Under the pieces are notes generated by a model. It worked only from the letters and a program-made list of their open reading frames with translations, did no database searches and was not told where the DNA came from. 34,947 bases of DNA. Origin: Rickettsiales bacterium. Its GTDB lineage: Bacteria; Pseudomonadota; Alphaproteobacteria; Rickettsiales; SXRF01. The position numbers and the translations under genes were made by a program. The stretch is from assembly GCA_005792635.1 (NCBI GenBank), contig SXRF01000026.1:1-34947 (forward strand). Reading direction: 5' to 3'. Below are positions 2,490 to 33,295 of this stretch, piece by piece. The stretch's first letter is position 1. Each line of letters begins with the position of its first letter.

Positions 2490-4661
2490 ATGATTAAATT
2501 TAATTCAGCAACTTTGGGTTTTAAGCTATGCGGCTTGTCTTTGCTGTGCCTATTGCTTTTCCTGTTTATTTTTGCACTGCCGCCATTTCAGGCTGGAACT
2601 TGGTTTAACACTGAGCCAGCGATGCTTGCTATGTTTATTCTGGCAGCTTTGTGTTCTTTGTGGCTGGGTGAAGGCATTTGGCGTGGCTTCCTTGTGATTG
2701 AACGACCAATCCACCCGCTGGTTTATGGCTTGCTGGCATGGGCGGGCTTGCAATTTCTGACACTGCCGTTTGCCGCAAATCCCTATCGTTCGTGGCTAGG
2801 CGTTCCGCAAACTGGCGAAGGCGCAGCGTGGCAGATTATGCTCGTATTATTCACCTTCCTTGCTATGCCATTATGGGAAGCGGCAATCCATAAAAAAATC
2901 CTGTTGCTAGTGGGCTTGGCTAGCCTGTGTATTATGACCTATCTGCATTTTGACCTCGGGGTTTTTTGCGCTAAATACGCGAATTATACTGAAAATAATG
3001 TTGATACCCCTGCTAATTTTCCTGATTATCTGGCCTTTATTGCTGCGTTTTTATGGCTTGCATACGCTAGCGTTCCCAGCATACGAACACCTGCCCGCCA
3101 TTTCTGGATGGTAACCATCTGCTCATTTGCTATTTTCACCACCTCCAACCACACAGCTAGCCTGTTCATCTTCCCCATGTTAATTGCTATGGGAATTGCA
3201 TTATTATCACAACTCGCGCGGCGCAAATTATACTGGCTAACCTTCATCATAAAACAACGAAAACTATGGAAAATTCTGGCAATAGCTGGAATATTTCTGC
3301 CGCTTTCTTTTGTCGCCATCAGCCAGCAACCAGATTTTTTCCCTTGCAAGAACGAATCCTTTGCTTCACGGGCAGTATTTAATCAAGCCGCCATTTCAGC
3401 AATCATCCAAGAACCACATAGACTGATTACGGGTACGGGATGGGGTGGCTTTAGCAGTGACATGTTCAAATATGGCATGGTGGATGGGCTATACGGCTTT
3501 AAGGGTGGAATATATCAGCCAAACTGTATGTGGCTTGCGGGAACTGTTTTCCACCCACACAACCAAGGAATGGCGGCACTCCTTGCCACAGGTTTTATTG
3601 GATTTGCAGTATTTATGCTGCTGCCGATACTGGCTTTTTTGCCGCTCCGTAGGTCGTTATTTTGGTGGTGCGTTCCCGTATTAATTGGCATTAGTGCGGT
3701 GGGGGCTTTGTGGTTTGCCTTGCCACAAGTTTTGCCCTTTCAAGCACTAGCCTTTGCGGCTTTATGCGCGGGACGAAAAGCCTGTGGCTGGCAAACCATG
3801 CCAACTCCAAAATTCTTTAGAGCCTGTTTAGAATCTCGCTGTAGCGTAACAAAAAAGCGAAGCTTTTCAAGAATTTTACCGCAGTGTACACGCAAGTACA
3901 TGAGGACAAAATTTTTGAAAAGCAAAGCGTTTTGTAGCTACAGTAGAGATTATAAACAGGCTCTTACCGCGATATTTGCTATATTTTTTGTGTTATTTGC
4001 CGCTAGTGCTTACGAACAAAAACAGATTATTTCTTATGGTGAACGCTTGGCATATATTATGGGCGAAGATCCAAATCAGGTGGATATTGTCGAGTGGCTA
4101 GCGCAGGATATTTCGCGTGGCAGCGACAGCTTTATAACAGCAGCGCAACATTATGCGGGAATGTTTGCCGACAAAGCAAATTCGGGAATGCTCACCGACA
4201 GGGACAAAGACTGGTATCGCAATTTTCTGGAAACTACCAAGATAGCGGCGAGCGATAATAATGCCGATATTCGTTTTGCAAAACTGGAAGTTGAGCTTTC
4301 TATGCTGCCTTTTCGCCTCATGCAAAAATCGCCTCTGGATGTTTTGAAGCCACAAATAAAAGAGCATCTAGCGGATGCCATTTTCCGTATTAGCGAAAAA
4401 GCTCCGCAGCGCGAGGATTTTATTGCGCCATTTCTGATGAGTTTAGATGGCTTTACGGGTGGAAATCTTGCAAAACAACAAGAAATATTGGAAAAAATTA
4501 TCTCCATAGCCCCAAATCATCGTAGCGCATTATGGCTGCTTGGTGGTATATATCAACATTCACCAGCAACCATTAAGCAAGGCACAGAGATGAAAACTCG
4601 CGCTGGCATACTTGGCGTTGAGCGAGTTTTCCCAGTCACCAAGCAGGAATTAAACGAATAA
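2490..4661 (+). CDS. O-antigen ligase/polymerase-like multispanning membrane protein
   Basis: 723 residues. About ten membrane segments fill the first 440 residues, followed by one more near residues 494-510 and a soluble helical C-terminal part (about 515-723) that ends in a TPR-like segment (HRSALWLLGGIY). A large loop before the last membrane pair contains HPHNQGMAALLATGFIGF, resembling the conserved loop of Wzy_C/O-antigen ligase proteins. Such proteins join or polymerise surface glycans in the inner membrane. Residues about 444-491 are encoded by a 144-bp palindromic element and form an Arg/Lys/Cys/Ser-rich stretch unlike the rest. The element is a multiple of three and leaves the frame open. 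The stop codon overlaps the prmA start (TAATG), so the genes are coupled. The ligase versus polymerase role and the glycan are unknown. Confidence 0.68.
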   Translation: MIKFNSATLGFKLCGLSLLCLLLFLFIFALPPFQAGTWFNTEPAMLAMFILAALCSLWLGEGIWRGFLVIERPIHPLVYGLLAWAGLQFLTLPFAANPYRSWLGVPQTGEGAAWQIMLVLFTFLAMPLWEAAIHKKILLLVGLASLCIMTYLHFDLGVFCAKYANYTENNVDTPANFPDYLAFIAAFLWLAYASVPSIRTPARHFWMVTICSFAIFTTSNHTASLFIFPMLIAMGIALLSQLARRKLYWLTFIIKQRKLWKILAIAGIFLPLSFVAISQQPDFFPCKNESFASRAVFNQAAISAIIQEPHRLITGTGWGGFSSDMFKYGMVDGLYGFKGGIYQPNCMWLAGTVFHPHNQGMAALLATGFIGFAVFMLLPILAFLPLRRSLFWWCVPVLIGISAVGALWFALPQVLPFQALAFAALCAGRKACGWQTMPTPKFFRACLESRCSVTKKRSFSRILPQCTRKYMRTKFLKSKAFCSYSRDYKQALTAIFAIFFVLFAASAYEQKQIISYGERLAYIMGEDPNQVDIVEWLAQDISRGSDSFITAAQHYAGMFADKANSGMLTDRDKDWYRNFLETTKIAASDNNADIRFAKLEVELSMLPFRLMQKSPLDVLKPQIKEHLADAIFRISEKAPQREDFIAPFLMSLDGFTGGNLAKQQEILEKIISIAPNHRSALWLLGGIYQHSPATIKQGTEMKTRAGILGVERVFPVTKQELNE
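3819..3964. repeat. Palindromic element inserted in frame in a coding gene (RPE-like)
   Basis: Terminal inverted repeats AGAGCCTGTTTA and TAAACAGGCTCT (12 bp, perfect) bound an imperfect palindrome. Inner arms GCTTTTCAAGAATTTT and AAAATTTTTGAAAAGC also pair, and the tip GCAGTGTAC...GTACATGAG resembles the tips of the elements at 30100 and 33129. TTA lies directly outside GAGCC and GGCTC on both sides and could be a 3-bp target duplication, giving a net insertion of 147 bp, or 49 codons. The element carries no stop in the host frame. In layout it matches Rickettsia palindromic elements found inside protein genes; identity with a named family is not claimed. Confidence 0.85.
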
Positions 4662-24077: not shown

Positions 24078-24220
24078 AACTCTCTTACAAACTAATTTTA
24101 GCAAAAAAGCGCGAAGCGATGGATACCGAGAAACATGAGGTTATTCTTCATAACTGACTTGTTTCGAGGAGGCTCTATCGCAAGCAGATTTGAAGCTAAA
24201 ATTAGTTTGTAAGGGGTTCT
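24076..24220. repeat. Palindromic element between two convergent genes
   Basis: A 145-bp element with about 27-bp near-perfect terminal inverted repeats: AGAACTCTCTTACAAACTAA... and its complement ending TAAGGGGTTCT, differing mainly at three bases near the outer end. The stop codon of the gene on each side overlaps its edge (TAG at 24075-24077 and at 24219-24221 on the minus strand), so it may act as a shared terminator. The inner part has CCGAGAA and hairpin GTTATTCTTCATAAC. Its ends differ from the other elements here. Confidence 0.85.
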
Positions 24221-30099: not shown

Positions 30100-30244
30100 A
30101 GGTTCTGTTGCGGAATTCGCTAGAGCATAGCGAAAATGGTGGTTTCCGAGAACCGTAGCGCAGTGTATGTTTTATACATGAGCAACGGAAGCGCAGGAAA
30201 CTACCATTTGCAGCAAGCTATAGTAGAATTCATGGGCAGAACCT
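30100..30244. repeat. Palindromic element, copy in front of the TPR and iscX genes
   Basis: 145 bp bounded by AGGTTCTG and CAGAACCT. Inner stems pair along most of the length (ATGGTGGTTTCC with GGAAACTACCAT), and the tip is GCAGTGTATGT-TTTA-TACATGAG. It is a close relative of the copy at 33129-33295. The gap 30011-30320 otherwise holds only AT-rich DNA, with a TATAAT on the minus strand that may serve the TPR-pilT-pilU operon. Confidence 0.88.
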
Positions 30245-33128: not shown

Positions 33129-33295
33129 AGGTTCTGCCCAGAAATTCGCTAGAGCGTAGCGAAAATGGCTGTTTTCCGAGAACCGTAGCGGAGTGTATGT
33201 AACAAATCCACAAGTGGGATTTGTGTACATGAGCAACGGAAGCGCAGGAAACTGCCATTTGCAGCAAGCTATAGTAGAATTTATGGGTAGAACCT
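33129..33295. repeat. Palindromic element, copy with an enlarged self-complementary tip
   Basis: 167 bp between AGGTTCTGCCCA and TGGGTAGAACCT. It is nearly identical to the copy at 30100-30244 but has about 21 extra bases at the tip. These are themselves complementary (AACAAATCC ... GGATTTGT), so the whole still folds as a hairpin. The left stem has ATGGC where the other copy has ATGGT, and the right stem has GCCAT instead of ACCAT, a compensatory change. Confidence 0.88.

Follow-up and report, generated by a model that had tools for sequence, protein, structure and literature searches.

The best-known cases of palindromes inside genes come from Rickettsia. In the available excerpts of two papers, Rickettsia palindromic elements (RPEs) are ~150 bp long, and nearly half of them lie within genes, in frame (PMC10969869, PMC2229807); the excerpt of the second lists their target duplication as “?”, and adds that ERIC and NEMIS also make in-frame fusions (PMC2229807). 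Wolbachia palindromic elements are grouped with RPEs here by a cited title only. ERIC, Correia/NEMIS and RUP share several properties with the element described below, being short and transposase-free, with terminal inverted repeats and a target duplication. They differ from it in that many kinds of terminal repeat surround one hairpin tip in the present case. To our knowledge, their sequences are not those of this element.

Here, we describe an in-frame palindrome in the draft genome of a Rickettsiales bacterium (GCA_005792635.1; referred to as G000). The window, i.e., the whole stretch of DNA that was analysed, is the 34,947 nt contig SXRF01000026.1. A preliminary description had proposed that an O-antigen ligase/polymerase-like gene in the window carries, without loss of frame, a palindrome bounded by perfect 12 bp terminal inverted repeats. 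The repeats are found at both ends (AGAGCCTGTTTA at 3819–3830 and TAAACAGGCTCT at 3953–3964); each includes one flanking base of what we define as a 144 bp element (Table 1). The open reading frame runs through the palindrome, and the TTA flanks, suspected earlier of being a target duplication, are exact direct repeats. The predicted fold of the palindrome has a free energy of −72.3 kcal/mol (z −11.4), equalled by none of 200 shuffles. The insert had been put at about 48 codons (residues 444–491); the location stands, but the net gain in the host gene is 147 bp, i.e., 49 codons (residues 444–492). As had been described, the added peptide is rich in Arg, Lys, Ser and Cys: the 49 residues include 7 Lys, 7 Arg, 7 Ser and 4 Cys, with only 1 Asp and 1 Glu. 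The element has a single stop-free frame, +2.

Table 1. Positions of the host gene, the in-gene element and its parts, and two related elements in the window
Feature	Position	Strand	Description or basis
Host gene	2490..4661	+	723-aa O-antigen-ligase-like membrane protein (Wzy_C; WaaL-like fold), C-terminal helical domain
Left target duplication TTA	3817..3819	.	flank comparison
Palindromic MITE-like element, class A (GAGCC ends), 144 bp	3820..3963	+	terminal repeats, fold, sister copies
Left terminal repeat GAGCCTGTTTAGAATCTC	3820..3837	+	
Conserved hairpin tip AGTGTACACGCAAGTACATGAG	3883..3904	+	63 genome copies vs 0 in reversed control
Right terminal repeat GAGCCTGTTTATAATCTC	3946..3963	-	
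Right target duplication TTA	3964..3966	.	flank comparison
Cousin element, class C (GGTTC ends), same tip	30101..30243	+	tip recurs at 30162
Cousin element, class C, flanked by TA	33130..33294	+	tip loop enlarged by second small hairpin

The proposed likeness of the host gene to O-antigen ligases is supported. The protein encoded at 2490–4661 matches Pfam PF04932 (Wzy_C) at E 3.3e-6, a weak match under the curated cut-off, and WaaL is its best relative among solved folds (Foldseek top match 7tpg_B, E 1.5e-3, TM-score 0.55 by target length). At E 1e-5, the protein is present in 10 of 55 genomes, with its own genome counted among the 55. In the AF2 model (mean pLDDT 83.5), residues 432–464 have pLDDT <50 and are disordered, and a helix starting at residue 466 continues into the last membrane helix, which agrees with the earlier placement of the insert just ahead of that helix.

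The palindrome is an insertion that is absent from three congeners. For each of these (G001, G002 and G003), protein matches cover both flanks and none crosses residues 443–491; the matches end at residues 431–442 and restart at residues 492–497. The congeners are 52–55% identical overall to the host protein, and the empty-site comparison is one with congeners. In an alignment of the host protein with 12 homologues, a check that the preliminary description had called for, the gap at the insert is visible among the 13 proteins, and the inserted residues occur in none of the 12. When the 147 bp are removed, a 90-residue ungapped alignment is obtained with all three congeners, with 42, 44 and 46 identical positions. 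As a control, a shift of 1–2 residues cuts the identity past the site from 16–20 to 0–4 of 37 residues. The host gene changes no faster than its congeners' copies: identity between the G000 gene and those of the congeners is 52–58% ahead of the site and 50–53% past it, as compared with 45–58% between congeners.

A DNA search of the genome with the element, also proposed earlier, found further copies. G000 is a draft of 128 contigs, broken at insertion sequences. In at least 11 cases (e.g., in C45, C57, C75 and C10), a contig terminates within what seems to be the same IS630-type transposase; hence, the draft breaks at a multi-copy insertion sequence. The search returned six near-full copies, including that of the window, plus many partial matches. 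The five sister copies are 89–96% identical to the window element, one of them without the outer ends. The tip is far more widespread than the full element; the pattern AGTGTAYN{1,9}TACATGAG has 63 sites in the genome and none in the reversed control. Read by eye, most of the 63 sites are the centres of palindromes with several classes of ends: GAGCC.. (A and B), GGTTCTG.. (C), GACTTC.. (D), TATAGTC.. (E), GATAGTGTCGTCACGAG.. (F) and GGACTTC.. (G). The automatic class labels are loose, and one of the 63 sites is left without a class. When 11 GAGCC-class copies are aligned, 17 of 44 predicted pairs show changes on both sides with pairing retained, a figure that counts few events because most of these changes separate just two subgroups; the pairs of the tip are nearly invariant.

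The tip had been reported to resemble that of intergenic copies in the same window. The likeness of the tips is confirmed, but the copies are not the same element: they have class C ends (TA|GGTTC...), and are thus cousins. Small additional hairpins occur in several palindromes. One lies in the tip loop of the element at 33130–33294 (window 33198–33227, AACAAATCCACAAGTGGGATTTGT), and a nested hairpin (GACCCGAAGGGCGGCGAAGCC or similar) occupies one arm of the palindromes L141 (C3), L146 (C25) and L113 (C37). At G000:C86:19894, a class C element sits at a TA, apparently within the end of a GAGCC-class element, which suggests that one palindrome was inserted into another.

Direct duplications mark the GAGCC class. 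GAGCC-class copies have identical 3 bp direct flanks in 8 of 16 rows, with a permutation mean of 2.7 (P 1.5e-4). Three of these rows fit poorly, with 7 mismatches (C1, C19 and C80), and are probably misassigned; without them, the count is 7 of 13, and the flanks in those seven are TTA or TAA. Some subgroups of IS5 typically produce TNA duplications. For the GGTTC class, whose 30 rows include misassigned ones, 17 rows have equal 2 bp flanks, and 16 of these are TA. The TA flanks are weaker evidence, since TA is its own complement.

The ends of class C connect this cousin class to the IS5 family. Fragments of IS5-family transposases (NF033580) occur at four contig ends and in one contig interior, with a best score of 101 bits against a cut-off of 110. 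The fragment ends read CTAGGTTCTGTTGAGAAATTT, and one class C variant agrees with this at 18 of 19 bases. Within 406 kb chosen around tips, the IS5-type end was found 15 times beside tips and 0 times elsewhere with up to 2 mismatches, and 29 times beside tips and 2 times elsewhere with up to 3 mismatches; the reversed control gave 0. For the GAGCC ends, searches of the G000 genome with NF033580 and PF01609 yielded no transposase with such ends, only the class C type or weak fragments, of which PF01609 (DDE_Tnp_1) gave one. Unpaired GAGCC-like ends in the 55 genomes, including G000, have no transposase-like frame inward when read by eye, with frames checked at six ends: among those of at least 100 residues within 1.5 kb inward, none was recognised as a transposase.

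Several candidate sources of class A were considered and rejected. IS630 copies end in TATAGTGACTTTATTTAACA, unlike class A. A locus with a 20 bp end match (C120:11257) has no second end within 3.5 kb and no transposase recognisable by eye, and at the Rhizobium locus L236:624, which has a stretch resembling the end, neither a second end nor a transposase was recognised by eye. Reading ~220 bp inward from nine GAGCC-like ends gave further palindromes of this kind in C37, G042 and G001 and seemingly degenerate ones in C75 and G009; the remainder looked like chance. Among viral contigs, the exact end occurs in three that share one stretch, with no palindrome in the part printed; a search of plasmids gave no match.

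The element thus has much in common with MITEs: it is short (144 bp), encodes no transposase, has terminal inverted repeats and a direct duplication, and is present in many copies. With respect to a further hallmark, ends shared with an autonomous insertion sequence, class C resembles the IS5-family fragments, and the searches above gave no GAGCC-ended insertion sequence. Given the limits of the element, the duplication, the sister copies, the insert-free congeners, the restored alignment and the IS5-type ends of class C, the palindrome is probably a MITE-like non-autonomous transposon, of the sort that an IS5-type DDE transposase mobilises in trans, which landed in frame. The element would have inserted at a TTA of the O-antigen-ligase-like gene, duplicating three bases, and the protein would have gained 49 basic residues in the loop before the last membrane helix, where they would be tolerated. 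The host gene stayed open because 144 + 3 is a multiple of three and the element has a stop-free frame (+2). A transposase of this type presumably acted on class A ends, the lengthened protein is presumably produced, and the insert is likely to be neutral. Against the explanation, the searches of this fragmented draft and of the other genomes gave no transposase with GAGCC ends, and the conserved tip is superfluous to standard two-ended transposition and is left unexplained by it.

It is the tip that lends some appeal to a different mechanism, in which the palindrome is a REP-type hairpin mobilised as single-stranded DNA by a Y1 (RAYT/IS200-like) transposase, with the asymmetric tip and the bulges serving as the recognition hairpin. 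The tip is asymmetric between strands, a bulged base is conserved, and the genome has one Y1_Tnp gene (C69:1069). However, contig C69 has no tip site, and the TNA direct duplications and the IS5-like ends of class C favour a two-ended DDE mechanism, which makes mobilisation by a Y1 transposase unlikely.

The preliminary description had suggested that the family enters both coding and non-coding sites. This is the case: none of the five sister copies lies in a long open frame, and a second in-gene copy was found. Overall, 5 of the 63 elements lie in frames that stay open >60 bases past both sides, and 2 of the 63 tip-bearing copies are shown to be gene insertions, i.e., the window gene and an L,D-transpeptidase gene in C50. 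In-frame landing is rare. The C50 copy (G000:C50:50665–50808; L110:4666–4809) is a 144 bp element of the GAGCC class with TTA and TTG flanks, in a frame identified by Pfam as YkuD (E 2.7e-23). Without the element, the protein has the N-terminus MRNFTIFYFLLLSFFLGATACAENS, a signal peptide as judged by eye; the six homologues shown have hydrophobic N-termini and lack the 49 residues. The element contributes LAPAQA|K past the hydrophobic stretch, with an AxA-like site (APAQA|K), again judged by eye. The spanning frames at C65, C71:6100 and C93:17230 were rejected as gene insertions, being short, and those at C65 and C93 have no Pfam match; the C65 element is a sister copy within a 133-codon frame. 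A tilS-like frame at C116, in which the element precedes the first domain, was also rejected, since the start codon is ambiguous.

In a further alternative, the insertion was selected, with the 49 residues or the mRNA hairpin altering ligase activity or how the downstream prmA is expressed. In favour of it, the intact gene keeps to the evolutionary rate of its relatives, the insert is strongly basic and sits in a loop, and the hairpin predicted in the mRNA is very stable. Against this, there is little look of an adaptation to coding in the family, because only 4 of 13 GAGCC-class copies combine a 3n length with any stop-free frame. The two in-gene copies are read in different frames (+2 and +0) and give different peptides, so that neither coding frame nor peptide is conserved between these two cases, and the loop is poorly ordered in the AF2 model. 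Selection for the insert is improbable in our judgement.

Transposition as an IS5-kind MITE must also be set against the layout that prompted the original comparison. The likeness to RPEs was borne out as regards a palindrome in frame within a conserved gene, but not as regards the conserved coding frame of RPEs. RPEs and the elements described here are ~100–150 bp palindromes that occur between genes and in frame within genes, a likeness by description. They differ in that the present family has clear TNA duplications, with IS5-type ends in its commonest cousin class (C), and in that it has no shared reading frame and enters genes in only the two cases among 63, as against nearly half for RPEs in the available excerpt of PMC10969869. 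The element works like an RPE, as far as layout and description go, but fits a MITE of the IS5 kind. The in-gene palindrome now comes with clear duplications, an IS5 link through a cousin class and absence from three congeners, and the second case is a signal-peptide insert with its own AxA-like site. As a consequence, the mechanism can be tested in the laboratory. Among the matches listed from the limited literature searched, none connects sX9, Bru-RS, RIME or an IS5 MITE to elements of this kind, and a text search for the letters of the tip gave nothing judged related.

The tip extends well beyond this genome. Among 398 genomes drawn across the phylum, it was found in 20, with a reversed-control match in 4; single tip hits may therefore be due to chance, and two that were read, in G281 and G409, are not palindromes. 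Six genomes hold 5 to 63 copies each with no control match. Copies read in distant families are mostly palindromes, with ends GAGCGG.., GAGCC/GAACC.. or GAGGC... A longer core pattern occurs in at least 96 stretches of named genomes, 80 of which are listed; the carriers among the matches listed include Rhizobium, Brucella/Ochrobactrum, Mesorhizobium, Phyllobacterium, Sphingobium, Pseudaquidulcibacter and MAGs. GGGTGTGTGG-like ends enclose the core in eight Rhizobium paknamense copies, six of them with CTA in front. A single core and tip is thus framed by many kinds of end. The Brucella-group core agrees in genus and size with Bru-RS1 and Bru-RS2, at 103–105 bp in the available part of PMC2267715; their identity is suggested by genus and size only, in excerpts of two sources (PMC2267715, PMC10800456), and class A differs in its diverged inner arms and GAGCC ends.

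This distribution bears on whether the palindrome is a true RPE, acquired by descent or transfer. The published RPE size range of 105–146 bp, the palindromic form and the in-frame position in genes are alike (PMC2229807, in excerpt), and Rickettsiales-labelled MAGs supply 4 of the 80 listed core-pattern contigs (L228, L251, L264 and L276). Yet most of the kin among the matches listed are in other Alphaproteobacteria, and families farther off in the phylum have tip palindromes as well; we consider a true RPE very unlikely.

A link to a presumed small RNA emerged in one genome. The distant genome G407 has 12 matches to Rfam RF02228 (sX9, a Xanthomonas sRNA), 10 of them over the cut-off, and these overlap 9 of its 9 tip sites; equal 3 bp flanks border the GAGCGG ends of 5 of 11 copies there (P 0.0023). 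G415 has five sX9 matches under the cut-off, one of them at its tip site, and G314 has two, both away from its listed tip sites. The covariance model gave no match in G000 at E 0.001, none at E 1 in three G000 copies (L001, L009 and L017), and none in the tip-bearing genomes G001, G223, G230 and G243. A comparison of 13 core-pattern loci with Rfam at the gathering score assigned no RNA family to the core. In the accessible portions of the sources, sX9 ranks within the 20 most prevalent annotated bacterial sRNAs (PMC9029176), and is mentioned as a transcribed or predicted sRNA (PMC10924375, PMC6337395), which favours a transcript at some sX9 copies.

New here are the sX9 link and the many types of ends around one tip. 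A tentative proposal, possible rather than probable, is that one hairpin module (GC-AGTGTAC..GTACATGAG-GC) is present across Pseudomonadota and came, time and again, to be enclosed by the ends of different IS5-type elements. It would unite, as a modular MITE superfamily, what are probably Bru-RS-like repeats of Rhizobiales with at least part of the presumed sRNA sX9; the tip would itself have a function, as RNA or as single-stranded DNA, and proteins outside Rickettsiales would recurrently be lengthened by in-frame landings. If such a superfamily is real, the Rfam sX9 family may need to be re-read as mobile DNA.

Two last alternatives to an in-frame MITE insertion do without either a longer protein or a transposition. 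The insert might be skipped at the level of the RNA or the ribosome, leaving the protein unchanged, as a strong hairpin within a reading frame could suggest; however, the frame is open throughout, no signal was recognised by eye, and the take-off and landing codons are unlike (TTT vs CTT), so skipping is highly improbable. An assembly chimera, conceivable in a repeat-rich draft genome, is the least credible account, as the two flanks belong to a single gene arranged as in the congeners, and the insert is bordered by exact duplications of TTA.

Other inverted repeats are present in the window. That at 24084–24213 has arms like those of classes D and G around another hairpin centre, without the usual tip. 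Between two minus-strand frames, a perfect 21 bp inverted repeat (TTCGTAGATCGTAGTCCGTAG) with a 21 bp loop is found at 815–877.
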